A stretch of DNA of 49,111 nt, from NCBI GenBank assembly GCA_947630805.1, contig CANRIV010000013.1:1-49111 (forward strand), given 5' to 3'. The notes under the pieces were generated by a model that made no database searches, had not been told where the DNA came from, and saw only the letters and a program-made list of their open reading frames with translations. The translations under genes were made by a program, and so were the position numbers. The stretch is from an uncultured Lachnospiraceae bacterium. Lineage in GTDB: Bacteria > Bacillota > Clostridia > Lachnospirales > Lachnospiraceae. Position 1 is the first letter of the stretch. Each line of letters begins with the position of its first letter. This document shows, piece by piece, positions 6,103 to 18,766 of this stretch.

Positions 6103-6945
6103 ATGGCGGGAAAATTATATCTGTGCGCCACACCGATTGGAAATCTAGAAGATATCACCTACAGGGTGGTAAGAACATTAAAAGAAGTAGATTTGATTGG
6201 TGCGGAGGACACAAGAAACAGTATAAAGTTGTTAAATTATTTTGATATTAAAACCCCGATGACCAGTTACCATGAATTTAATAAATATGACAAAGCAAAG
6301 GTACTGGTAAAGGAAATGCTGCAGGGCAGAAATGTTGCGCTGATTACCGACGCCGGAACACCGGGAATTTCAGATCCGGGAGAAGAACTGGTAAGGCAAT
6401 GCTATGAGGCGGGAGTGGAGGTAACTTCCCTGCCCGGAGCGGCTGCATGTATTACAGCGCTTACAATGTCAGGACAGAAAACAGGAAGATTTTGCTTTGA
6501 AGCTTTTCTGCCCCGGGACAAAAAAGAAAAGAAAGATGTGTTGGAATCTTTGAAAAATGAGACAAGAACAATGATTCTGTATGAGGCGCCGCATCGGCTT
6601 TTCAAGACGTTAAATGAGTTGAAGGAAGTACTGGGTGGCGACAGACCTCTTACAGTGTGCCGGGAATTGACAAAAAAGTATGAAGAGACGTTTCAGACAA
6701 CATTGCAGCAGGCGATTGAAAAATATCAGCAAAAAAATCCCAAAGGGGAGTATGTATTAGTTCTGGCCGGAAAAAGCAGGGAGAGCATCCTGCAGGAAAA
6801 AAGAAGCCGCTTTGAGGAGATGACAGAAGAAGAACACGTGGAATTTTATGTAAACCAAGGAGTGGATAAAAAAGAAGCGATAAAAAAGGCGGCAAAGGAC
6901 AGAGGGGTATCCAAAAGAGATATTTATAATGCACTGATAAAATAG
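6103..6945 (+). CDS. rsmI: 16S rRNA (cytidine1402-2'-O)-methyltransferase
   Basis: This 280-residue tetrapyrrole-methylase-fold enzyme methylates the 2'-O of C1402 in the 16S decoding centre. Signatures are LYLCATPIGNLEDIT at the N-terminus, AEDTRNSIKLL, the SAM-loop DAGTPGISDPGE, SLPGAAA and LYEAPHRL. It is full length, including the C-terminal helical extension with VSKRDIYNAL. It closes the left housekeeping operon and is followed immediately by a strong bidirectional terminator. Confidence 0.95.
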   Translation: MAGKLYLCATPIGNLEDITYRVVRTLKEVDLIGAEDTRNSIKLLNYFDIKTPMTSYHEFNKYDKAKVLVKEMLQGRNVALITDAGTPGISDPGEELVRQCYEAGVEVTSLPGAAACITALTMSGQKTGRFCFEAFLPRDKKEKKDVLESLKNETRTMILYEAPHRLFKTLNELKEVLGGDRPLTVCRELTKKYEETFQTTLQQAIEKYQQKNPKGEYVLVLAGKSRESILQEKRSRFEEMTEEEHVEFYVNQGVDKKEAIKKAAKDRGVSKRDIYNALIK

Positions 6946-7615: not shown

Positions 7616-8209
7616 ATGCTGAATTATATATGGGCAATCATGATAGCAATCGGAATCGTTTATGGACTGCTGACCGGACATATTGAAGATGTGGGAAACG
7701 GTGCAATAACATCTGCAGAAGAAGCGGTAAAGTTATGTATTACTATGCTGGGAATTATGAGTATGTGGCTGGGGTTTATGGAGGTGGCAAAAGCCAGTGG
7801 ACTGATTGAAAAGGCAGAAAAGAAAATGGAGCCGGTGATAGGATGGCTTTTCCCTGCTTTGCCGCAGACGCATCCGGCGAGGCCACATATTATAACAAAT
7901 ATAATCGCAAATATTTTAGGATTGGGCTGGGCGGCAACACCGGCAGGTTTAAAGGCGATGGAGGAGTTGTCCAAACATCCTGTTCCTCAAAAAGGAGCCG
8001 TTTTTCCAAAACACATTGCAACCAATGAAATGTGTACATTTCTGGTAATCAATATTTCTTCTCTGCAGTTGATTCCGGTAAATATGATTGCATACAGGAG
8101 TCAGTACGGCTCTGTCAATCCGGCGGCAATTATTGCACCGGCAATTATTGCAACAACATTGAGCACGGTTTCGGGAATTATTTTTTGTAAAATTATGTGT
8201 AAAAAGTAA
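7616..8209 (+). CDS. spmA: Spore maturation protein A
   Basis: This 197-residue membrane protein of the nucleoside-recognition (Gate) family matches SpmA, with PARPHIITNIIANILGLGWA and the region FPKHIATNEMCTFLVI. Several hydrophobic segments cover most of the length. In Bacillus, SpmA and SpmB act together in spore core dehydration and heat resistance. Here the partner spmB is not adjacent but at 18862, about 10.6 kb downstream, with unrelated envelope and transport genes between. The start is the first ATG of the frame, with only a weak purine-rich site upstream. Confidence 0.92.
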   Translation: MLNYIWAIMIAIGIVYGLLTGHIEDVGNGAITSAEEAVKLCITMLGIMSMWLGFMEVAKASGLIEKAEKKMEPVIGWLFPALPQTHPARPHIITNIIANILGLGWAATPAGLKAMEELSKHPVPQKGAVFPKHIATNEMCTFLVINISSLQLIPVNMIAYRSQYGSVNPAAIIAPAIIATTLSTVSGIIFCKIMCKK

Positions 8210-8249: not shown

Positions 8250-8312
8250 GAATATTAAATGTGAGGGAATTTTGATAGAAAAACAGCAAGATTAAAATTC
8301 ATGGAGTACACA

Positions 8313-10901
8313 ATGGACGAGGAAAAAAATATTTTAGAATATCCGGAAGAAGAAAAAAAAGAGCGGTTTTCTTTTCTTAAAAATAAGCAGGATAAAATCA
8401 GAAAATGGCCGATTATAAAATGGTGTCTGGCAGCACTCGTATTAATTGTCGGAATTGTATTTGTTCAGGCCAACAATCATTTATGTTATAACACATATAC
8501 TACGGAGAAAGTAAAAGATCCGGAGAAAAAGGTGCATCAGCTCGCTACAGACAGCATATGTGAGCAGGAGATAAAAGGATACAATGGAACGCTGCAAAGA
8601 GTTTACCTGTATCTGGATAACCAGGGAATGGAAAGTGCTTCCGGCAGAGTTGTAGTCCGAGTAAAAGACAAGCAAGGCAATGTGTTGGGGAAAACGCATA
8701 GAGCAGTGAAACGGATACGGACCAGAAAATTTGTTCCACTTTTATTTGAAGAGCAACCTAAGTTACATCAGGGAAATACTTACATATTGGAAATTCGCTG
8801 TAAGAATGTCCAGAATCCACAGGGATTTGGTATTTATACTTCTACTGTACCAAATCAGTGGTTGGGAAAGGCAAGTATTGAAGGCCGTCAGCTGGAAAAG
8901 GGAACGACACTCCGGTGCATGCTGGAGTTTCGATATTATGACAGTTATTCCATGAAACTTATGATGTCGATGATGATTTTGGGAGTTATCATTATATTAA
9001 TTCCTTTTGAGTATCTTGGAAGAATGATTTCAAGTAAATTCGCAAAATCCATTCATCTGGAAACGTGGCTTTCGAGAATTGTGTTTCTTCTGGCGCCGGC
9101 AGTGGCATATTTTATCATGGAAAGTCTCTCGGGATACTCTTTGGTAGAAATTGCGGGATTTTTTATTACGTGGAAAGGGTTGCTAAACCTTTTTATCTAT
9201 TATGTTATTTTATTCGTTTTGTTTGCAGTGACAAATAAAACGCAGTATTCCGCAATTTTGTTGTGGATTATTACATTTGTGTTGGGAATGACAAATTATT
9301 TTGTTTTTCAATTTCGGGGAATTCCGGTGCTGGCAGCAGATATTTTATCCGTGGGAACAGCATTAAATGTGGCGGATAGTTTTGAGTATACTTATGACAT
9401 ATGGGTATTGTGGGCAGTAAGTATTTTGGTTACATTTACCGGAATTATGCTCAGTTTTATGCCGTATAAGGGATTCCGATGGCCAAAGCGTATTGGAACA
9501 GCGGCTCTGGCGGTTGTTCTGCTTATACTTACGAATTATATTTACATTACTTCAGATATTACCAATCAGCTGGGAATAAAAGACAGCCAGTGGAAACCGC
9601 AGCTTACCTATGAAGAAAACGGAAGTATGCTGTCTTTTACGACGTCTTGGAGATATATTAAAACAGAAAAACCGGAAGGATACTCCGTAAAAAAAGTGGA
9701 AGCTGTGGCGAAACAGTATCTTTCTGATAAAACGGACAAGTCTCAGGCAAAATCTAAAAAAATGCCGAATGTGATAGCCATTATGAATGAATCTCTGGCA
9801 GATTTCAGTTATGATGGAGAACTTTTGACAAGTGAAGATTATCTTTCTTTTATTCATAGTATGAAGAAAAATACCATAAAAGGAAAGCTGTATGTCTCCA
9901 TCGAGGGTGCCAATACTGCAAATTCGGAATTTGAATTTCTGACTGGAAATTCGCTGGCATTTTTTGCACCGAGAGCAGTACCGTATAATAATTATGTCAA
10001 TAATATAGTCCCATCCCTTACCAGGACATTAGTATCACAGGGATATGTAGGAAATAACGCATACCATCCATATAAAAGAAGCGGATGGAACAGAGAACAT
10101 GTGTATAACTGTTTGGGATTTGGAACATTTTATTCGGAAGAACATTACGAAAATGCCCAATATATCAGGAATTTCATTTCTGATAAAACCAATATGGAAC
10201 AGATTATCCAAGATTACGAAACGGCAAAGAAAAAGTCCTCGGATCCGTTTTATCTGTTTAATGTTACTGTCCAAAATCATGGAGGGTACGTAGGAAACCG
10301 TGGGTTTGTAAAGACGGACGTCAAATCTAAAAGTCCGGGAATGAAAGCATCTTCTGTGGATCAGTATCTTACGCTGGCGAAGAAATCCGATGAGGCATTT
10401 GAGCTGCTGATTACTTATTTTGAAAAGGTAAAAGAGCCAACGGTAATTGTAATGTTTGGAGATCATCAGCCACCGTTGTCTAATAAATTTTACAGCAATT
10501 TATTTGGGACCAACATAGAAAATTTTACGGCAGAACAGACTGCCGCATGGTACAGTACGCCATATATTATCTGGGCCAATTATGATATTGAGGAAAAAGA
10601 AAATCTGGATATGAGTGCAAATTATCTGTCTTCTTATCTGCTGCAACTCATTGGTGCAGATATGACCGGATACAATAAATATTTACTGGAACTTCAAAAG
10701 AAAGTCCCTGTTTTGACAGGAATGTTTTATGCGGGAGATGATGGTGTATTTCATGATATTGATGAAACGTCGCAATATACGAAATTTATCCGGGAATATG
10801 GGATTGTTCAATATAATGGTCTGCTTGACCAAAAACACAGAGTGAAAGATTTCTTTTTCCTGCAGGATGGCGATTATGAACTGCCAAAACGGAGAATATA
10901 A
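8313..10901 (+). CDS. LTA synthase family protein with N-terminal ectodomain
   Basis: This 862-residue LtaS/alkaline-phosphatase-superfamily membrane enzyme is expected to transfer glycerol-phosphate or a related group to an envelope polymer. The C-terminal half is the sulfatase-fold domain, starting around VIAIMNESLADFS. Nucleophile Thr535 lies in EGANTANSEFEFLTG, and metal-site segments are NVTVQNHGG and MFGDHQPP. Before it lies a set of TM helices (~205-400). Unusually, the first TM (~33-53) is followed by ~150 residues of predicted extracellular beta-rich sequence. That makes it about 200 residues longer than typical LtaS. GGAG at 8303-8306 fits ATG 8313 better than ATG 8301, which has no site. 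The gene has its own promoter and terminator. Confidence 0.85.
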   Translation: MDEEKNILEYPEEEKKERFSFLKNKQDKIRKWPIIKWCLAALVLIVGIVFVQANNHLCYNTYTTEKVKDPEKKVHQLATDSICEQEIKGYNGTLQRVYLYLDNQGMESASGRVVVRVKDKQGNVLGKTHRAVKRIRTRKFVPLLFEEQPKLHQGNTYILEIRCKNVQNPQGFGIYTSTVPNQWLGKASIEGRQLEKGTTLRCMLEFRYYDSYSMKLMMSMMILGVIIILIPFEYLGRMISSKFAKSIHLETWLSRIVFLLAPAVAYFIMESLSGYSLVEIAGFFITWKGLLNLFIYYVILFVLFAVTNKTQYSAILLWIITFVLGMTNYFVFQFRGIPVLAADILSVGTALNVADSFEYTYDIWVLWAVSILVTFTGIMLSFMPYKGFRWPKRIGTAALAVVLLILTNYIYITSDITNQLGIKDSQWKPQLTYEENGSMLSFTTSWRYIKTEKPEGYSVKKVEAVAKQYLSDKTDKSQAKSKKMPNVIAIMNESLADFSYDGELLTSEDYLSFIHSMKKNTIKGKLYVSIEGANTANSEFEFLTGNSLAFFAPRAVPYNNYVNNIVPSLTRTLVSQGYVGNNAYHPYKRSGWNREHVYNCLGFGTFYSEEHYENAQYIRNFISDKTNMEQIIQDYETAKKKSSDPFYLFNVTVQNHGGYVGNRGFVKTDVKSKSPGMKASSVDQYLTLAKKSDEAFELLITYFEKVKEPTVIVMFGDHQPPLSNKFYSNLFGTNIENFTAEQTAAWYSTPYIIWANYDIEEKENLDMSANYLSSYLLQLIGADMTGYNKYLLELQKKVPVLTGMFYAGDDGVFHDIDETSQYTKFIREYGIVQYNGLLDQKHRVKDFFFLQDGDYELPKRRI

Positions 10902-10911
10902 TAGAATAAAA

Positions 10912-10938
10912 AGACAGGCACCAGAAGGTGCCTGTTTG
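10912..10938 (+). terminator. Terminator after the LtaS-like gene
   Basis: ACAGGCACC and GGTGCCTGT form a perfect 9-bp stem with an AGAA loop and a short T tract. The T tract runs directly into the -35 box of the next promoter. Confidence 0.75.
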
Positions 10939-10964
10939 ACATGAAAAGAGTCATAGGATAGAAT
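10936..10964 (+). promoter_or_regulatory. Strong promoter of the ECF/DUF4430 operon
   Basis: A perfect TTGACA, 17-base spacer, TAGAAT. The -35 box abuts the preceding terminator stem. I looked for a cobalamin riboswitch in the short leader (to 11001) and found none. Confidence 0.8.
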
Positions 10965-11001
10965 AAAAACATTCGATAAATGGAAAGGCAGGAAACAGAG
11001 A

Positions 11002-12171
11002 ATGAATACAATGAAATACAGATTATATGTTATGATAACTACCCTGTTTATGACACTGGCCGTCACAACTGCTGTAGCGGCAGCACCGGCGCAGACGGCG
11101 GCCGGAGAGAAAAAAGCCACCGTTGTTTTTTCTATCGAAAAATTTACAATCGGGCAGGGATATCTTGTCTTACCAATTCAAGTGGAAATGGAAACAGATG
11201 CCAGTGTGGCAGATGTGTTTTTAAAAGTAGCACAGGAAAGAGGAATCACGTATAAGTCGGATGAAACTGCGTACACGTTTTTTTTAAGAAGCATTTATCA
11301 TGCAGATACAGGAATAATTAACATTCCAAAAGAAATCTCGCAGATGCCGCCTTATCAGTTTTCTTTTGGATCCGGAGAGGAAGATCAGATTGTCTATAAT
11401 GCCCCTTCCAATGAAAAAAATGAAGGAAATCATCTGGAGGAAGGAGCTTTGGGAGAGTCTTCCTATCACACAATGGCGGGCTGGATGTTTACAGTCAATA
11501 ATGAGAGCATTTCAGAGTCGGCAGACAGCGTTCCCGTGAAAGACGGAGATGTTATCCGGCTTCAGTTTTCTGTCTATGGTTATGGGGCGGATTTGGGATT
11601 TGACACAGAGGAATGGACGGGAATCCCGAGAATTGTTTTAGCAGACAGAGATGCGTTGATGAGAGAAGTGGCGGCTACCAATAGTGATATGCAGAAAAAT
11701 ACAGAGATTAAAAAAGCGTATGAGGATGCGCTGAGTGTCCTGACAATATATCAGGCGTCGCAGCAGGAAATTGACAATGCCCTTGAGGCCTTAAAAAATG
11801 CAAAGAAAACATATCAGGCAATGTCGGAAACAACAAAAAAACCGCAGGAAACACAGCCTCCGACCACAGAAAATCCGACATATCCGAGCGTAAAAAGAGC
11901 GCAGATAAAGAAAATAAAAAACATAAAAAAATATAAAGCAAAGATCAGCGTTAAAAAAATCACTGGCGTTAAAGGCTATCAATATAAATATGCGAATAAT
12001 AAAAAATTCAAAAATGCGACAGTAAAGATTACAACAAAGAGAACGCTCATAACCAAAAAGTTTAAAAAGAAACAGCGATGTTATGTGAAAGTAAGAGCAT
12101 ATGTAGAATCTGACCATACCAAAGTCTATGGAAAATGGAGTAAAATAAAATCTACAAAAATTAAAAAATAA
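11002..12171 (+). CDS. Secreted DUF4430 (transcobalamin beta-domain-like) protein
   Basis: This 389-residue exported protein has a signal peptide at 1-27 ending AAAPA. Residues ~38-190 carry the DUF4430 pattern: a beta-rich start, then GWMFTVNNE and VKDGDVIRLQF. DUF4430 is the fold of the C-terminal beta-domain of transcobalamin and intrinsic factor. A helical segment (~210-275), a Pro/Thr linker and a strongly basic Lys/Tyr-rich C-terminal module (~300-389) follow. That module recurs at the end of the protein encoded at 47743 and may bind the wall or a polyanion. It is first in an operon with an alpha-barrel surface protein, a second DUF4430 lipoprotein and an ECF transporter. Role inferred: extracellular capture of a ligand, possibly a corrinoid. 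Confidence 0.8.
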   Translation: MNTMKYRLYVMITTLFMTLAVTTAVAAAPAQTAAGEKKATVVFSIEKFTIGQGYLVLPIQVEMETDASVADVFLKVAQERGITYKSDETAYTFFLRSIYHADTGIINIPKEISQMPPYQFSFGSGEEDQIVYNAPSNEKNEGNHLEEGALGESSYHTMAGWMFTVNNESISESADSVPVKDGDVIRLQFSVYGYGADLGFDTEEWTGIPRIVLADRDALMREVAATNSDMQKNTEIKKAYEDALSVLTIYQASQQEIDNALEALKNAKKTYQAMSETTKKPQETQPPTTENPTYPSVKRAQIKKIKNIKKYKAKISVKKITGVKGYQYKYANNKKFKNATVKITTKRTLITKKFKKKQRCYVKVRAYVESDHTKVYGKWSKIKSTKIKK

Positions 12172-12179
12172 GGATATCA

Positions 12180-12205
12180 GGCAGGAGCGATGCTCTTGCC
12201 TTTTG
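12180..12205 (+). terminator. Internal hairpin-terminator between operon genes 1 and 2
   Basis: GGCAGGAGC pairs with GCTCTTGCC around a 3-base loop, followed by TTTT. It sits between the first DUF4430 gene and the rest of the operon. Partial read-through would make the secreted protein more abundant than the membrane components. No second promoter is evident before 12233. Confidence 0.65.
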
Positions 12206-12232
12206 TCGATATTACCTTGTGAGGAAAAATAG

Positions 12233-13654
12233 ATGAAAAAATATATTTCTATCCTATTGTTTTTTTTGCTGGGAATTACGAATATGTTTCCGGTGTCGGC
12301 AGATACTTCCCTGTCGAAACAGTCTGTAAAACAATACCTTTACAGTATTTATCAATATGAGACAAACCATATTCCAGAGCCTTCTTATGGAAGTGTGGGA
12401 GGAGAATGGCTGATAATCGGTTTGGCAAGATACGGAATCCGACAGGATTACGCAGACAAATACATAAAAAATTTGCAAAAGCACATAGAAGATGTGGATG
12501 GAGTACTTTCCACAAGAAAATATACAGAATATGCCCGTGTCGTAATTGCGCTGACATCTCTGGAAAAAAATCCAAAAAGTTTTGGCGGCTACAATCTTTT
12601 ACAGCCCCTGGCAGAATATGACAATCTTATTTCCATGGGGGTAAATTCAGTAAGTTATGCTCTGATTGCGTTTGACTGTGGGAATTATGAGATACCTGAG
12701 CCGAAAAAGGACTATCACGGGAAAGTCACAACAAGAGATAAATTAATTACAGCAATTATAAATGCACAGTTAAAAGACGGAGGATGGACGCTCGCAGGAA
12801 AAAATGTGGATGTCGATGTGACGGCAATGGCGATACAGGCGCTGGCGCCGTATTATAAACGCAATGAAAATGTCAGGGAAGCTCTGGAAAAGGCGTTAGA
12901 AAAGCTGAGTAGTATGCAGCAAATGGACGGAGGATTTCAATCTTCGAACAACGGGGGAAATGAAAGCACTGCACAGGTGCTTACAGCGTTATCTGAACTG
13001 AGGATTGATATTGAAGATAAAAGATTTGTAAAAAATGGAAACACGGTAGTTGACGGTCTGCTGCAATATTATAAAAATGGCGGATTTAGTCATCGGGTTG
13101 GCGGAGCAGTAAATCAGATGGCGACAGAACAGTCAATGTATGCACTGGTGGCATATTACAGAAGCATTACAGATAAAAACAGATTGTTTGATATGTCTGA
13201 CGGGGTAAGCCGTCTCGCATATGAGCAGAATACACAAGAAAGTTTTGCGGCAGAGAAGAAAACGGAGAAAAAACAAAAAAAGAATACAAAGAAGAAAACG
13301 TCAGACAAAACAGAAGAAAAAAGAAAAGCAGAACAGGACGGGAATTTATCGCAACAGGAAACAGAAAAACAAAAGGAAACAGAAGAACAGAAGGAAACAA
13401 AAAAAGAGGAAAAGACAGAGAACGTGCGGCAGAAAAGGGCAAAAGAAGGACAGACAACAGGGAAACAAGTGAGTGAAACAGAAGATGAAGCAGAAAGAAT
13501 ATTATCATCTGAAGAAACCCCATCCGAAAAACCACATGGAAAGAGCGAAAAGGAACATAAGGTCGGGGCAGCAGTCGGTGGAGGAATAATAGCCGGCTGT
13601 ATCGTGGGGATGGTCGTTGGATATATTTTAGTGAGAAGAAGGAAAAAGAGATGA
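12233..13654 (+). CDS. Membrane-anchored prenyltransferase/squalene-oxidase-repeat protein
   Basis: This 473-residue surface protein has a signal peptide at 1-23. Residues ~30-330 form an alpha/alpha-barrel-type repeat domain with Gly-Gly-Trp/Phe turns (LKDGGWTLAG, QMDGGFQSS, YKNGGFSHR), as in terpenoid-cyclase-fold proteins. The alpha-domain of transcobalamin/intrinsic factor shares this fold. There is no sign of a cyclase DxDD motif. A charged Lys/Glu/Gln stalk (~340-445) leads to a C-terminal Gly-rich TM helix (~448-468) with a positive tail, anchoring the barrel outside the cell. The stop overlaps the next gene by four bases (ATGA). Inferred role: one half of a two-part ligand-binding receptor, the other half being a DUF4430 protein. 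Confidence 0.85.
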   Translation: MKKYISILLFFLLGITNMFPVSADTSLSKQSVKQYLYSIYQYETNHIPEPSYGSVGGEWLIIGLARYGIRQDYADKYIKNLQKHIEDVDGVLSTRKYTEYARVVIALTSLEKNPKSFGGYNLLQPLAEYDNLISMGVNSVSYALIAFDCGNYEIPEPKKDYHGKVTTRDKLITAIINAQLKDGGWTLAGKNVDVDVTAMAIQALAPYYKRNENVREALEKALEKLSSMQQMDGGFQSSNNGGNESTAQVLTALSELRIDIEDKRFVKNGNTVVDGLLQYYKNGGFSHRVGGAVNQMATEQSMYALVAYYRSITDKNRLFDMSDGVSRLAYEQNTQESFAAEKKTEKKQKKNTKKKTSDKTEEKRKAEQDGNLSQQETEKQKETEEQKETKKEEKTENVRQKRAKEGQTTGKQVSETEDEAERILSSEETPSEKPHGKSEKEHKVGAAVGGGIIAGCIVGMVVGYILVRRRKKR

Positions 13655-14136
13655 AATGGATGAGGAGAAAACAGTTTTTATTACTGCTTATTGTTTTGAC
13701 GGTTTTACTGTCCGGCTGTAAGCGGGAGCAGCATTCTGAAAACAAAAAAGAAGGAACATGTACATTATTGGTAGAGTGTCAGTCTGTTTTGGATAATATG
13801 GATAGACTGGAACAGCAGTTAAAAGGATATATTCCCGAATCCGGGATTATTTTTTCGGAGCAATCGGTAGCGTTTTATTCCGGAGATACTGTTTATGATG
13901 TTATGAAAAGAGAACTGGAACGGGAGAAAATTCCAATAGAAGTATCCTTTACCGGAAAAAGCGCTTACGTGGAAGGAATTGATAATCTTTATGAATTTTC
14001 CTGCGGAGAGCAGTCCGGATGGATTTATAGCGTAAACGGCAGTGTTTCTTCAAAAAGCTGCAGTGAGAATATTGTAAAAGCGGGAGATGTTATCCGGTGG
14101 CATTTTACCTGTAATTTAGGAGAGGATTTAAAATAA
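13651..14136 (+). CDS. DUF4430 lipoprotein
   Basis: This 161-residue lipoprotein has a signal peptide ending in the lipobox LLSGC (Cys24). The mature part is a single DUF4430 domain with GWIYSVNGS and KAGDVIRWHF, the pattern conserved in the transcobalamin beta-domain. It overlaps both neighbours (4 bases upstream, 1 base downstream), so its synthesis is coupled to the barrel protein and the ECF T subunit. The likely role is a membrane-tethered binding domain handing ligand to the S component. Confidence 0.85.
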   Translation: MKWMRRKQFLLLLIVLTVLLSGCKREQHSENKKEGTCTLLVECQSVLDNMDRLEQQLKGYIPESGIIFSEQSVAFYSGDTVYDVMKRELEREKIPIEVSFTGKSAYVEGIDNLYEFSCGEQSGWIYSVNGSVSSKSCSENIVKAGDVIRWHFTCNLGEDLK

Positions 14137-15005
14137 TGGCAGATGAGTTTTCGAGATTTCATCCGTTGGTCCAGATTGTGTTTTTTTGCTTTGTTATGGG
14201 AATTACCATATTTCAAATGCAGATTATACTGGCGCTTATCTCTTTCCTGAGTGCGGCAGTGTATCAGATTTATCTGAAAAGATGGAGAGGTCTGGTATAT
14301 TTGGGAATAATATTCTGTGCGATGATACCTGCAGCGCTAATTAATCCGCTTTTTTCCCATAGAGGAACAACCAGACTATTTTATTTATTTACAGGAAATG
14401 CGGTTACATGGGAGGCAATCGTGTATGGATTTGTGGCGGCAATTATAATCGGCGCGGTAATGTTATGGTTTGTGGCAATTCATGAAATCGTTACAGCAGA
14501 CAAATTGATTGCAGTTTTGGGAAATATGTTTCCGCACATAACAGTTTTATTATTGATGATATTTCGGTTTATTCCGAAAATAGCTGCTTTTCAGAAAAAA
14601 GTAAAAGAGGCAGACAAGGCATTGCAAGCGGACCCTAAAAGATTTTCAGAAAAAATAAAGAGGCAGTCCAGAATTATTTCCATTACTACTACGTGGGCAT
14701 TGGAAAATTCCATAGACACGGCGGATTCCATGAGAGCCAGAGGATTTGGCTGTGGAAAGCGGAGTTTCTATCATAACAATTTCTTTTCTCCGAGAGATGT
14801 GGTGGTATTTGTGTGGATTATGGTTTTATCTTTACTTGTCATATGGCAGATAGCAGTGGGAAATACAATATCCTATTATTATCCCGTAATAAGAATAAAA
14901 GGACATATTTTTATTTATATCATATATGGTTTTTTGTGCATGACGCCTTTGATTGTTGATTTATGGGAGGAAATACGATGGCACAGATTGAAATCAAAAA
15001 TTTAA
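14136..15005 (+). CDS. ECF transporter transmembrane (T) component
   Basis: This 289-residue polytopic membrane protein of the CbiQ/EcfT family couples the ATPase to the substrate-binding S subunit. The coupling helix motif ADSMRARGFG at ~residues 196-205 carries the Ala-Arg-Gly signature. Five or six hydrophobic segments surround it. The ATG overlaps the lipoprotein stop by one base. The ATPase gene begins inside its 3' end. Confidence 0.92.
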   Translation: MADEFSRFHPLVQIVFFCFVMGITIFQMQIILALISFLSAAVYQIYLKRWRGLVYLGIIFCAMIPAALINPLFSHRGTTRLFYLFTGNAVTWEAIVYGFVAAIIIGAVMLWFVAIHEIVTADKLIAVLGNMFPHITVLLLMIFRFIPKIAAFQKKVKEADKALQADPKRFSEKIKRQSRIISITTTWALENSIDTADSMRARGFGCGKRSFYHNNFFSPRDVVVFVWIMVLSLLVIWQIAVGNTISYYYPVIRIKGHIFIYIIYGFLCMTPLIVDLWEEIRWHRLKSKI

Positions 15006-16543
15006 CGTTTACATACGCAGGAGAAGACAAGAACACTCCGGCAATTCGAAATATTTCTATGAATATCTCCAGAGGAGATTTTATCGTTATCTGTGGAAAA
15101 ACAGGCTGTGGAAAAAGTACATTGCTCAGAAATTTAAAGCCGGCAATCAGACCTGCCGGAAGGACAGAGGGCGTTGTCTGCTATGAAAATAAGCCGATTG
15201 ACGAGATGGATTTTCGGAAACAGGCACAGGAAATCGGTTTTGTGATGCAAAATCCGGAACATCAGATTGTGACGGATAAAGTATGGCACGAGCTGTCATT
15301 CGGACTGGAAAATCTGGGAATTTCAACGGCTAAAATCCGACTTCGGGTCGCTGAAATGGCAGAGTATTTTGGAATTACGGACTGGATGGAAAAATCTGTG
15401 GAAAAACTATCCGGAGGTCAAAAACAGTTGATGAATTTGGCAGCAGTTATGGCAATGGACCCGGCGGTTATGGTATTGGACGAGCCTACGGCACAGCTTG
15501 ATCCTATTGAGGCAGAAAATTTTATACACACATTAAAAAAAATAAATCAGGATTTGGGGATTACGATAATTCTTTCGGAGCACAGATTGGATATCGTGCT
15601 GCCGGAGGCTGACAGGGTGTTTGTAATGAATCAGGGAGAAATTGTGCAACAAGGAAATCCGCAGCAGATTGCAGAGAAAATTGCGGAAGAAGATTTCCTA
15701 CAGTTTCTGCCGGTGTCTACCAGGATTTATCATATGTGCGGGAAAACGGGTATCGTGCCAATTTCTGTAGCCCAGGGGAGAAAATGGATAGAGGACCAGC
15801 CAATTAGAAGCGCAAAGTTTTGCACATCGGAGAAAAAAAAACGGGAAGAAATCATTCGTTGTAAAAACGTATGGTATCGCTATGAAAAAAAGAGTGAAGA
15901 TATTATTAAAGGTCTGGAATGTCATATTTATCGGGGAGAAATATTTGCGATTCTGGGCGGAAACGGAACGGGAAAAACAACAATGCTTTCACTGCTTGCA
16001 GGAATTAGGAATCCCTATCGGGGAAAAATAGAGAAAAAAGGAAAAAGCGGGTTTTTGCCACAGGATGTACAGACATTATTTGTTCGGGAAACAGTGGCAG
16101 AGGAACTGGAAGAAGTCAGCGGGGAAATCATAGAAGAGATGGAGCTGGCGCCCCTGAAGAAAAAACATCCTTATGATATCAGTGGAGGGCAGCAGCAAAA
16201 GGTAGCGCTGGCAAAAGTTTTTCAAAAAAATCCGGACATCTTTTTGCTGGATGAGCCGACAAAAGCTTTAGATCCTATTTATAAAAAACAGTTAGGAAAA
16301 AAATTAAAACAGTTATCAAACGAGGGAAAAACAGTTATTCTCGTCAGTCATGATGTGGATTTCTGTGGAGAATATGCCCACAGATGTGGATTGTTTGCCA
16401 ATGGGAAGCTGACAGCGGTTGATAATTTTCGGGAATTTTTTTGTGCAAACCGCTTTTATACAACAACGCTGCATAAAATATTTCGCAATAAAATAAAAGA
16501 TGTAGTTCGCATGGAGGATATTGTATGCGGAAAGGGAGAATAG
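14978..16543 (+). CDS. ECF transporter ATPase, two fused ABC domains
   Basis: This 521-residue protein fuses the two ATPases that are separate EcfA1/EcfA2 chains in many Firmicutes. Domain 1 has Walker A GKTGCGKST, signature LSGGQKQ and Walker B VMVLDEPTAQLDP. Domain 2 (from ~290) has GGNGTGKTT, ISGGQQQ and IFLLDEPTKALDP. Both sites look catalytically complete. The frame is open from ATG 14963, but GGGAGG at 14965-14970 correctly serves ATG 14978 (MAQIEIKNLTF). It overlaps the T gene by 28 bases and the S gene by 19. Confidence 0.94.
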   Translation: MAQIEIKNLTFTYAGEDKNTPAIRNISMNISRGDFIVICGKTGCGKSTLLRNLKPAIRPAGRTEGVVCYENKPIDEMDFRKQAQEIGFVMQNPEHQIVTDKVWHELSFGLENLGISTAKIRLRVAEMAEYFGITDWMEKSVEKLSGGQKQLMNLAAVMAMDPAVMVLDEPTAQLDPIEAENFIHTLKKINQDLGITIILSEHRLDIVLPEADRVFVMNQGEIVQQGNPQQIAEKIAEEDFLQFLPVSTRIYHMCGKTGIVPISVAQGRKWIEDQPIRSAKFCTSEKKKREEIIRCKNVWYRYEKKSEDIIKGLECHIYRGEIFAILGGNGTGKTTMLSLLAGIRNPYRGKIEKKGKSGFLPQDVQTLFVRETVAEELEEVSGEIIEEMELAPLKKKHPYDISGGQQQKVALAKVFQKNPDIFLLDEPTKALDPIYKKQLGKKLKQLSNEGKTVILVSHDVDFCGEYAHRCGLFANGKLTAVDNFREFFCANRFYTTTLHKIFRNKIKDVVRMEDIVCGKGE

Positions 16544-17223
16544 GAAAAGGTCTTTTGATAAACGCTGCGTTTCCTATGGAAAGATGGTATTATTTTGTGG
16601 CGATATGTATTCTTCTTTTTTCCGTTCTTATATTTTTATGTCGTTTTGAGAAAAGAAAACCTCAGGCAAGAGAGGTCGTTGTGCTGGCGGTTATGACCAG
16701 TCTTGCGATTCTGGGAAGGCTGATTTTGTTCATGACGCCGCAGATAAAGCCATGCGCCGCAATTATTATTATTACGGGAATTATGTTAGGAAAGGAAGCG
16801 GGTTTTTTATGTGGAGCCTTGACGGCTTTTGTGTCAGACTTCTTTTTTGGCCAGGGACCGTGGACCATCTGGCAGATGTTTGCGTTTGGTATGATTGGAC
16901 TGCTCTCGGCTGTAATCTTTTCCGGGAAAGAAAATCTTTTGAGAGAGAAAAAGTGGCTGCTTTGTCTCTATGGTTTTTTTGCTGCTTTTCTGGGATATGG
17001 ATTCATTATGGATTTTTCTACGGTGCTGATGTATACCGATTCTCCTAAAATTTCCGCATTGATTGCGACATTTATTACCGGTTTGGGATTTAATTTGATT
17101 CACGGATTTTCTACCGCTGTATTTTTATGGTTTCTGGCAAATCCTTTTTTCCGGAAGCTGGATAGAATTAAGACAAAGTATGGAATGTACATAAAAGACG
17201 TTAAGAAAAAAACGGGAAAATAA
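16525..17223 (+). CDS. ECF transporter substrate-binding (S) component
   Basis: This 232-residue integral membrane protein has about six hydrophobic helices and a small Gly/Phe-rich loop (SDFFFGQGPW), as in ECF S components. It contains the AxxxA-like helix that contacts the T subunit. GGAGG at 16510-16514 supports the start. It shares an operon with a dedicated T component and fused ATPase, so this is a group I (dedicated) ECF system. The S-family sequence does not by itself tell me the substrate. The neighbouring transcobalamin-like proteins make a corrinoid the leading guess. Confidence 0.85.
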   Translation: MRKGRIGKGLLINAAFPMERWYYFVAICILLFSVLIFLCRFEKRKPQAREVVVLAVMTSLAILGRLILFMTPQIKPCAAIIIITGIMLGKEAGFLCGALTAFVSDFFFGQGPWTIWQMFAFGMIGLLSAVIFSGKENLLREKKWLLCLYGFFAAFLGYGFIMDFSTVLMYTDSPKISALIATFITGLGFNLIHGFSTAVFLWFLANPFFRKLDRIKTKYGMYIKDVKKKTGK

Positions 17224-17302
17224 TCAGCCTAAAATAGAAACTGAAGTTAATTTAGAGAGAAATATTGCGAATAAAACAGCAGGAACTCTGAATAAAATAA
17301 AG

Positions 17303-17331
17303 TTGAAAATTAAAAAATATGGTGCTATTAT
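17303..17331 (+). promoter_or_regulatory. Promoter of the antiporter gene
   Basis: TTGAAA, 17-base spacer, TATTAT, in the gap after the ECF S gene. The antiporter is therefore probably transcribed separately from the ECF operon. Confidence 0.65.
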
Positions 17332-17425
17332 GTATCAGATTAAAACAGCGCAGGGTTTGTAAGTTTTAAAGACAGGAAGAAAAATGGAGACTGTTTTGTC
17401 TGACAGAAGAAAAGAGGGGAGCATC

Positions 17426-18766
17426 ATGGAAGAATTTGGGTACTTATGGCAATTGGCACTCATTTTGGGAAGTACCAAGCTTTTGGGACTGGTAACAAAA
17501 AAGTTTAGTATGCCGCAGGTCGTCGGGGCGCTGATGGCAGGTCTCATATTGGGACCGGCAGTACTTGGTAATTTATTGGCTGATGTATCTATTGGAGGGC
17601 ATCAGATTGTCAAACTGACACTATATGAAACACCGTTTATAAATCATTTATCCGAAATCGGTGTGATTGTTTTAATGTTCTGTGCAGGTTTGGAAACCGA
17701 TATCAATGAGTTAAAGAAATGTGGGAAGGCCTCATTCATTATTGCTGTTATCGGCGTAATTGTACCGCTGGTTACCGGAGGAATTTTTACCTATTGGTTT
17801 TTGGAAAACGGGTGGATAAGTTCCGCCCAGGGAAGTACAAAACTGTTGCAGGCTGTTTTTGTTGGTGTCATTCTGACGGCAACGTCTGTAAGTATAACGG
17901 TAGAGACACTGCAGGAGATGGGAAAATTAAAGACTGCGTCGGGAAATGCAATCCTGGGAGCAGCAATTATAGATGATATTCTTGGAATTGTTATATTGAC
18001 ATTAGTAACCAGTCTGGGAGGAGCAGGAAGTCAGGCCGGCAGCTCGGTGGAATTGATTATTGTACTGATAAAAATTATTGCTTTTTTTGCTTTTGTTGGG
18101 GCGTTTGGTTTTATAATATATAAAGGATTCTCTAAATGGAGAGCTCATGATGGAAAAGGAAAGCACAGACATGCGGTAATGGCATTTGTCATTTGCCTTC
18201 TAATGTCGTTTGCGGCAGAATATTTTTTTGGTGTGGCAGATATTACAGGCGCCTTCTTCGCGGGTGTTATTATATCCATGACTCAGGAAGACCAGTTTAT
18301 TGCATCAAAATTTGAAGTAATTTCCTATTTATTTTTAAGTCCGGTATTTTTTGCCAGCATCGGACTGAAAGTAGATGGAGATGCAATCATGTCTATGGGT
18401 CTTCCGATAGTGATGTATGCTTTGCTGCTGACGCTGATAGCCATTCTGACGAAAGTAGTTGGCTGTGGTTTGGGAGCAAAAATATGTGGATATAAAAATT
18501 ATCAATGTCTGCGTATTGGAGTGGGAATGATATGCAGAGGAGAAGTGGCGCTGATTGTGGCAAACAAAGGAATAGAAGCCGGACTGATGAGTCAGGAAAT
18601 CGTGGCGCCGGTCATTATAGTGGTCATTGCTACGACGATTGTGACGCCGATTATTTTAAAACCTGTTTTTATGCGCAAGGGGGCGAATGGCATTGATGTA
18701 CCACATGAAAGTAAATTAATTGAAAATATTGAAAAAAGAGTGGAATCTCTTATCTTTAGAAAATAA
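17426..18766 (+). CDS. Cation:proton antiporter (CPA2 family)
   Basis: This 446-residue membrane protein of the Na+/H+ exchanger, KefB/GerN type has about 12 TM helices. Diagnostic pieces are MPQVVGALMAGLILGP (TM2), IIDDILGIVILT (the Asp-Asp ion-binding helix) and ADITGAFFAGVIIS. It lacks a C-terminal TrkA-N or TrkA-C domain. The ion is not determinable; Na+, K+ or NH4+ are all known in the family. The frame is open to ATG 17384, but GAGGGGAG just before ATG 17426 and the family-typical MEEFGYLWQLALILG favour 17426. A strong terminator follows. Confidence 0.9.
   Translation: MEEFGYLWQLALILGSTKLLGLVTKKFSMPQVVGALMAGLILGPAVLGNLLADVSIGGHQIVKLTLYETPFINHLSEIGVIVLMFCAGLETDINELKKCGKASFIIAVIGVIVPLVTGGIFTYWFLENGWISSAQGSTKLLQAVFVGVILTATSVSITVETLQEMGKLKTASGNAILGAAIIDDILGIVILTLVTSLGGAGSQAGSSVELIIVLIKIIAFFAFVGAFGFIIYKGFSKWRAHDGKGKHRHAVMAFVICLLMSFAAEYFFGVADITGAFFAGVIISMTQEDQFIASKFEVISYLFLSPVFFASIGLKVDGDAIMSMGLPIVMYALLLTLIAILTKVVGCGLGAKICGYKNYQCLRIGVGMICRGEVALIVANKGIEAGLMSQEIVAPVIIVVIATTIVTPIILKPVFMRKGANGIDVPHESKLIENIEKRVESLIFRK

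Follow-up and report, generated by a model that had tools for sequence, protein, structure and literature searches.

A six-gene operon in the genome of an uncultured Lachnospiraceae bacterium (assembly GCA_947630805.1) probably imports corrinoids, that is, it would serve B12-type scavenging in a bacterium that apparently does not make B12 itself, and we put the probability of this at roughly 0.83. The operon occupies positions 11002-17223 of the window, by which we mean contig CANRIV010000013.1 at its full length of 49,111 nucleotides, one whole contig from a 1.84 Mb genome that is 98.8% complete. The six open reading frames (ORFs) all lie on the + strand, start with ATG, and follow one another at spacings of 61, -4, -1, -43, and -19 bases. 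They encode, in order, a secreted DUF4430 (SLBB) protein of 389 amino acids (11002-12171), an alpha/alpha toroid protein of 473 amino acids (12233-13654), a DUF4430 (SLBB) lipoprotein of 161 amino acids (13651-14136), and the three parts of an energy-coupling factor (ECF) transporter, namely an EcfT-type transmembrane coupling protein of 289 amino acids (14136-15005), a fused double ECF ATPase (EcfA-EcfA) of 526 amino acids (14963-16543), and an S component of the CbrT type of 232 amino acids (16525-17223). A preliminary description of this DNA had listed six tightly coupled genes for a secreted DUF4430 protein, an anchored alpha-barrel protein, a DUF4430 lipoprotein, and a full ECF module, and had read them as a candidate system for corrinoid capture and uptake. 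The ORFs, which overlap or nearly do so, and the family assignments agree with this account, and the sequence comparisons support its functional reading overall.

The S component was assigned by sequence searches against the PDB and by the Pfam ECF S-component families. When the protein was searched by itself with phmmer, the best match was 6fnp_A (CbrT) at 7.7e-14, and the next one was at 0.024. A profile built from 19 relatives likewise gave 6fnp_A first (2.7e-21, 79.4 bits), RibU (3p5n; 3.5e-7, 33.3 bits) second, and 4hzu_S (8.9e-5) third among solved chains. By these sequence scores the S component appears nearer to CbrT than to the other solved S families, with RibU far behind, which is the comparison that the preliminary description had proposed. 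6FNP is ECF-CbrT of Lactobacillus delbrueckii, a transporter reported to carry both cobalamin and cobinamide (PMC5997447). The remaining parts of the module fit such a transporter, since an EcfT and two ECF ATPase domains are encoded. The fused ATPase contains two ABC_tran stretches (177 bits) and matches the ECF ATPase model TIGR04520 at 327 bits (cut-off 315). The fourth gene product has no Pfam match of its own, and its assignment as CbiQ-like comes solely from the family profile: the best solved chain for the EcfT family was 5d3m_D (2.5e-17), whose sequence is identical in 6fnp, and of the 20 members of the family, 14 were matched by CbiQ at E<=0.1, the lowest value being 1.1e-9, with the window member not among them.

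Relatives of the S component were found in 47 of 200 sampled genomes of the same family, the window's own genome counted. When 20 of their neighbourhoods were fetched and compared by blastp, the lipoprotein was matched in 19 (in one of these inside a gene resembling the first operon gene, on a contig of 3,150 bases), and EcfT and the ATPase also in 19 each; a toroid match was present in 14, and of the six neighbourhoods lacking one, two stop at a contig edge. The toroid is also present in 10 of 12 congeners. A scan of named genomes confirmed at least 590 S relatives, from which 80 loci were kept, including loci of Paenibacillus, Blautia, Clostridium, Enterococcus, Lacticaseibacillus, and Christensenellaceae. 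In the 59 of these loci whose S gene is preceded by 6 kb or more of sequence (21 were left out), EcfT and the ATPase were found near the S gene in 59/59 each, a lipoprotein-type DUF4430 protein in 54/59, and the toroid in 49/59, as judged by hidden Markov models that were partly built from the loci then scored, and of which the ATPase model is non-specific and the DUF4430 model also matches non-lipoproteins. Because the same gene content and order are seen in relatives, comparison of the sequences indicates that neither is due to chance.

Variants of this arrangement were seen among the relatives. In L078, a cobalamin riboswitch (6647-6885) is followed from 7065 by EcfT, ATPase, and S genes with no DUF4430 or toroid match nearby; judged by its gene content, the transporter also exists without surface receptors. 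The S components of L061 and L066 carry an N-terminal extension of about 230 residues containing hydrophobic stretches, and in other relatives S domain and double ATPase form one protein. In L052, L056, and L059, another EcfT-like gene lies beyond the S gene. L081, whose record is titled Nitrososphaerota archaeon, contains the operon at 49% S identity amid Bacillota, and a metagenome binning error is more likely than an archaeal copy.

The regulation of the relatives points to the same type of ligand. Apart from the window's own genome, 46 genomes have an S relative; the cobalamin riboswitch (RF00174) was found in 35 of the 46, and in 24 of the 46 it precedes the S gene on the same strand by at most 15 kb, one of these matches (G188, 27.9 bits) being below the Rfam cut-off. 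The expectation by chance was 0.18 genomes, with a maximum of 4 over 100,000 draws; the 15 kb limit was chosen after the riboswitch positions were known, and the initial placement count used stricter filters. Where a genome has exactly one riboswitch (22 genomes), it has this position relative to the S gene in 16. Which genes lie between riboswitch and S gene was checked in the fetched neighbourhoods only. Among the named genomes, 23 of the 80 loci were scanned with Rfam models (15 named isolates or nearest relatives and 8 long loci near the top of the list), and an upstream riboswitch was found in 7/8, 4/7, and 5/8 of them, or 16/23; three of the 16 matches are cut by the locus end, some loci without a match have little upstream sequence, and one other locus has a downstream riboswitch only.

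The genome content is consistent with a need for imported B12. A methionine synthase with both B12-binding domains is encoded, and a protein encoded next to it weakly matches the activation domain (18.2 bits, cut-off 25). One further protein has a B12-binding domain above the cut-off and, by sequence, looks like a B12-type radical SAM protein; a third listed match is below the cut-off. No match was found in the genome to CbiC, to the FecCD permease family, which includes BtuC, to BtuR, or to PduO, whereas 7, 13, 7, and 9 of 14 control genomes, respectively, matched these families. The bacterium therefore looks like a B12 auxotroph that would need methylcobalamin only, with B12-dependent methionine synthase as the main consumer and the operon as the sole importer candidate found, a reading that is drawn from a single marker of ring synthesis in a draft genome close to completeness and, for importers, from a search of the FecCD family that did not extend to others such as BtuM.

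The three proteins encoded ahead of the transporter are predicted to be exported and membrane-linked or secreted. The lipoprotein has the lipobox LLSGC with Cys23, as read from the sequence, and a full match to Pfam DUF4430 (58.7 bits). Its predicted model folds like the beta domain of transcobalamin and, in structural comparisons made by re-alignment of the best 1000 Foldseek chains, matched the B12 carriers and one uncharacterised bacterial relative, 3u7z, well above the others among the matches listed. A single-sequence search with this protein found nothing useful. It thus belongs, by its predicted structure, with SLBB surface proteins carrying a DUF4430 beta-grasp domain of the transcobalamin type. 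3u7z (RUMGNA_00854 of Ruminococcus gnavus) dates from 2011 and bears the title 'putative metal binding protein', which assigns it no function; it has the same fold as the lipoprotein model, and a corrinoid is worth considering as its candidate ligand. The toroid protein, which gave a sub-threshold match to the Pfam prenyltransferase/squalene-cyclase toroid families, consists of a signal-like segment (3-23), the toroid (about 26-338), a charged linker, and a C-terminal membrane segment (443-469). In the first DUF4430 protein, a hydrophobic N-terminal segment (8-30) is followed by a DUF4430-like domain and a basic Fn3-like tail; the PF14478 match (29.0 bits, cut-off 23.8) is partial, spanning only profile positions 33-70 of 72, and the protein is 42% identical to the first operon gene of L060. 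The tail makes up the C-terminal ~100 residues and could be a module for retention at the cell surface. The preliminary description had also proposed that both folds of transcobalamin are encoded as separate proteins, as the lipoprotein model and the alpha/alpha toroid of the second gene suggest; in its structural check, the beta-domain fold was borne out for the lipoprotein model, and the toroid model took an alpha/alpha toroid fold whose best matches among the re-aligned chains appear to be terpene cyclases.

How the surface proteins might work is less certain than what they import. We consider the chances about even that the toroid and a DUF4430 protein form a split, cobalamin-gated surface clamp that hands the corrinoid to the S component. 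In such a mechanism, the two half-proteins, which resemble the halves of intrinsic factor, would close on a corrinoid at the surface; because the halves are two chains and not one, they would bind less tightly than the one-chain animal proteins, and the clamp could open again and deliver its corrinoid to the S component with no need for proteolysis, which animals require. The ECF module would then turn the S component inward, using ATP. The secreted first DUF4430 protein might collect corrinoids farther out or act as an alternative beta partner. A split clamp is plausible by analogy, because the alpha and beta domains of human transcobalamin, when produced separately, join only upon addition of cobalamin, the single domains having lowered affinity (PMC5599065), and because cleaved intrinsic factor retains tight cobalamin binding (PMC6257451). 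One-chain carriers hold cobalamin so tightly that proteolysis is needed for its release (PMC5997447), and two chains on one membrane could plausibly release it.

Several observations weigh against the import of corrinoids by this operon or against the proposed clamp. No cobalamin riboswitch was found in the window at the gathering score or in a permissive scan of 10600-17500, the sole cobalamin riboswitch of the genome (111 bits) is located on another contig (contig 5, L007:13501-13710, - strand), and in 22 of the 46 other genomes the 15 kb ahead of the S gene contain no riboswitch. In Pfam, the S component scores best with the riboflavin S family PF07155 (47.1 bits, cut-off 26.7). The closest folds of the toroid in the re-aligned Foldseek chains appear to be terpene cyclases and not B12 carriers, and neither the toroid nor the DUF4430 sequence profiles found a B12 carrier among PDB sequences. 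The stretch NGWFPNYG, which is conserved elsewhere in the DUF4430 lipoprotein family, is lost from the window lipoprotein. The direct fusion of the second and third operon genes in L060, with hydrophobic segments between the domains, is one observation from one metagenome assembly, since L060 and congener G201 carry the same 626-residue ORF and are apparently one genome, and a single sequencing error could have created it, because the two reading frames share 4 bases in the window. Furthermore, the genes, their order and families, the predicted folds of the toroid and the lipoprotein, and the regulation in relatives are shown, whereas we infer the surface location, the toroid-lipoprotein clamp, the hand-over to the S component, and the ligand.

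With regard to the missing riboswitch, the preliminary description had noted its absence correctly, and the permissive scan excludes a hidden one in the region covered; its suggestion that the ligand, if not the regulation, may differ finds no support in this absence. In the congeners, a riboswitch was found in 8 of 12, one apiece, and in all 8 it lies, by coordinates, directly 5' of the first DUF4430 gene; in 7 of these 8 it is just behind a relative of the window gene at 7616-8209. In the window, a lipoteichoic acid (LTA)-synthase-like (sulfatase) gene at 8301-10901 separates that gene from the operon. An LTA-synthase-like gene also precedes the operon in two congeners (90% and 84% complete), which have no riboswitch match anywhere, and in the two that remain (79% and 89% complete) both the toroid and the riboswitch went unmatched. 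Because congeners carry the riboswitch before the operon and the window has the LTA-synthase-like gene there instead, the absence looks, from these sequences, like a loss in the lineage, and it does not speak for another ligand.

The riboswitch on contig 5 leads a gene for a secreted GLUG/Fn3 surface protein of 1016 amino acids (L007:10385-13435, - strand) that has no DUF4430 or toroid match and may be a further B12-related surface protein. This protein has at least 31 matches in the genome, itself included, and the others listed are all within its last 160 residues; a related tail was also matched in all 12 congeners searched, where only the tail or the GLUG region was matched among the matches listed. 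The Fn3-like tail was therefore rejected as a link between the first DUF4430 protein and the riboswitch-led protein, since it is a common tail and carries no weight.

Of the alternatives, the one that survives best keeps corrinoid import and gives up the shared clamp: each DUF4430 protein would be a receptor alone, and the toroid an anchor or assembly scaffold. The beta domain of human transcobalamin by itself binds cobalamin (PMC5599065), 10 of the 59 loci have no nearby toroid and 5 of those 10 retain a lipoprotein-type DUF4430 match, and the top structural matches of the toroid model are other toroid proteins. However, the toroid and the DUF4430 protein occur together in 49/59 loci, toroid and DUF4430 domains share one chain in many long surface proteins as well as in L060, and exactly this pair of folds is found in the animal B12 carriers (PMC1796856). 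We regard separate receptors as a fairly unlikely alternative, less probable than the split clamp.

Somewhat more doubtful is a second variant within corrinoid import, in which the ligand would be an incomplete corrinoid or a non-cobalamin cobamide, such as cobinamide, or pseudo-B12 from neighbouring cells. Cobinamide is also carried by CbrT (PMC5997447), and the contact loop of the lipoprotein has diverged from the family consensus. Because NGWFPNYG is wholly lost in the window lipoprotein and partly kept in its congeners, the change in this loop may have shifted the affinity or the ligand. On the other hand, nothing in these sequences tells such ligands apart, and the searches that bear on them, which found nothing, covered only CbiC and two adenosyltransferase families, with no search aimed at nucleotide-loop genes for the repair of incomplete corrinoids.

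That the ECF module imports a different vitamin, for instance riboflavin, and that the surface proteins have nothing to do with it, is very improbable, since the PF07155 label that favours this reading is taken, in sequence terms, as the nearest curated model and not as a function, the S profile gave CbrT 79.4 bits against 33.3 bits for RibU, and no FMN (flavin mononucleotide) riboswitch was found at the Rfam gathering score in the 23 loci, for which only cobalamin riboswitches, tRNA, and rRNA were listed. Equally remote is the idea that the surface proteins act on polysaccharides or terpenes and adjoin the importer by chance: the toroid fold is common to terpene cyclases and sugar epimerases, but the gene order is kept across Lachnospiraceae, Paenibacillus, Enterococcus, and other Bacillota, a cobalamin riboswitch leads most of the tested loci, and the predicted DUF4430 model has the B12 carriers and 3u7z as its best matches among those listed.

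Such an operon had been proposed before. In Burroughs et al. (2007), bacterial SLBB proteins with toroids are reported to be encoded in one operon with CbiO/CbiQ genes and with a second SLBB protein, perhaps joined to the first in a surface complex; the host bacteria are usually without key B12 biosynthetic enzymes, and scavenging of B12 or its precursors is predicted (PMC1796856). With its secreted or anchored SLBB protein, toroid, second SLBB paralogue, CbiO-like ATPase, and CbiQ-like protein, the window operon is a member of the kind predicted there. The available text of that paper names no S component and does not contain the word 'riboswitch', whereas our analysis shows a CbrT-like S component and counts the riboswitch linkage; new here, too, are the lack of a BtuC-type permease match in the genome and the apparent loss of the riboswitch in the lineage.

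The transporter itself resembles ECF-CbrT, with an S component of the same family and an EcfT profile that matches the EcfT of 6fnp. The host of ECF-CbrT is a B12 auxotroph from a group without BtuCDF (PMC5997447), like the picture obtained for the window genome. Its S gene, however, lies beside nrdJ and pduO, and surface receptors are unmentioned in the available text (PMC5997447), while the window operon holds two receptor-like folds beside the ECF module. In animals, intrinsic factor, transcobalamin, and haptocorrin combine the alpha/alpha toroid and the beta-grasp DUF4430 domain, both of which are predicted in the window operon; the animal carriers are one secreted chain taken up by endocytosis, whereas the window encodes separate polypeptides, each predicted to be membrane-linked, with no one-chain linker and with ECF uptake, and a single chain made of the two operon proteins was found only in L060. 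BtuG and BtuH of Bacteroidetes likewise capture B12 at the surface before a membrane transporter (PMC6977713; PMC8941943), although BtuG is a beta-propeller that works with the outer-membrane BtuB and not a toroid/DUF4430 pair with an ECF module (PMC6977713).

In the mostly open-licence literature covered, we found no experiments on DUF4430 or toroid proteins as bacterial receptors for B12, and B12 capture before membrane crossing in Gram-positive bacteria is little explored there. S components serve as the substrate-binding protein themselves. If our reading is right, an extracellular receptor has been added to ECF transport and intrinsic-factor-like folds work without endocytosis, which would bear on B12 competition in microbial communities and on the proposal that the B12 carriers of animals came from bacteria. 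A split clamp in particular would mean that ECF transport can be assisted by a receptor, and it would be a present-day counterpart of the bacterial proteins proposed as the source of the animal carriers (PMC1796856). The riboswitch-linked family, which spans Lachnospiraceae, Paenibacillus, Enterococcus, and lactobacilli, makes the 2007 prediction directly testable: its two domains are small and can be produced in soluble form, the structure of a reference transporter is solved, and there is the riboswitch link.

The operon is preceded on the + strand by a promoter-like site, TTGACA-17-TAGAAT, at 10936-10964, with a hairpin at 10914-10935 immediately 5' of it. The site matches at 11 of 12 positions and is the best of 28 in the scanned region, and the preliminary description had begun the operon at the same position, 10936. 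The total is unremarkable (28 against a shuffle mean of 26.3), and only the strength and position of this putative promoter, not the number of matches, count as support for it. Elsewhere in the window, tRNA clusters lie near both contig ends (87-972 and 47417-47642), and a T-box leader is located mid-contig at 25367-25594.

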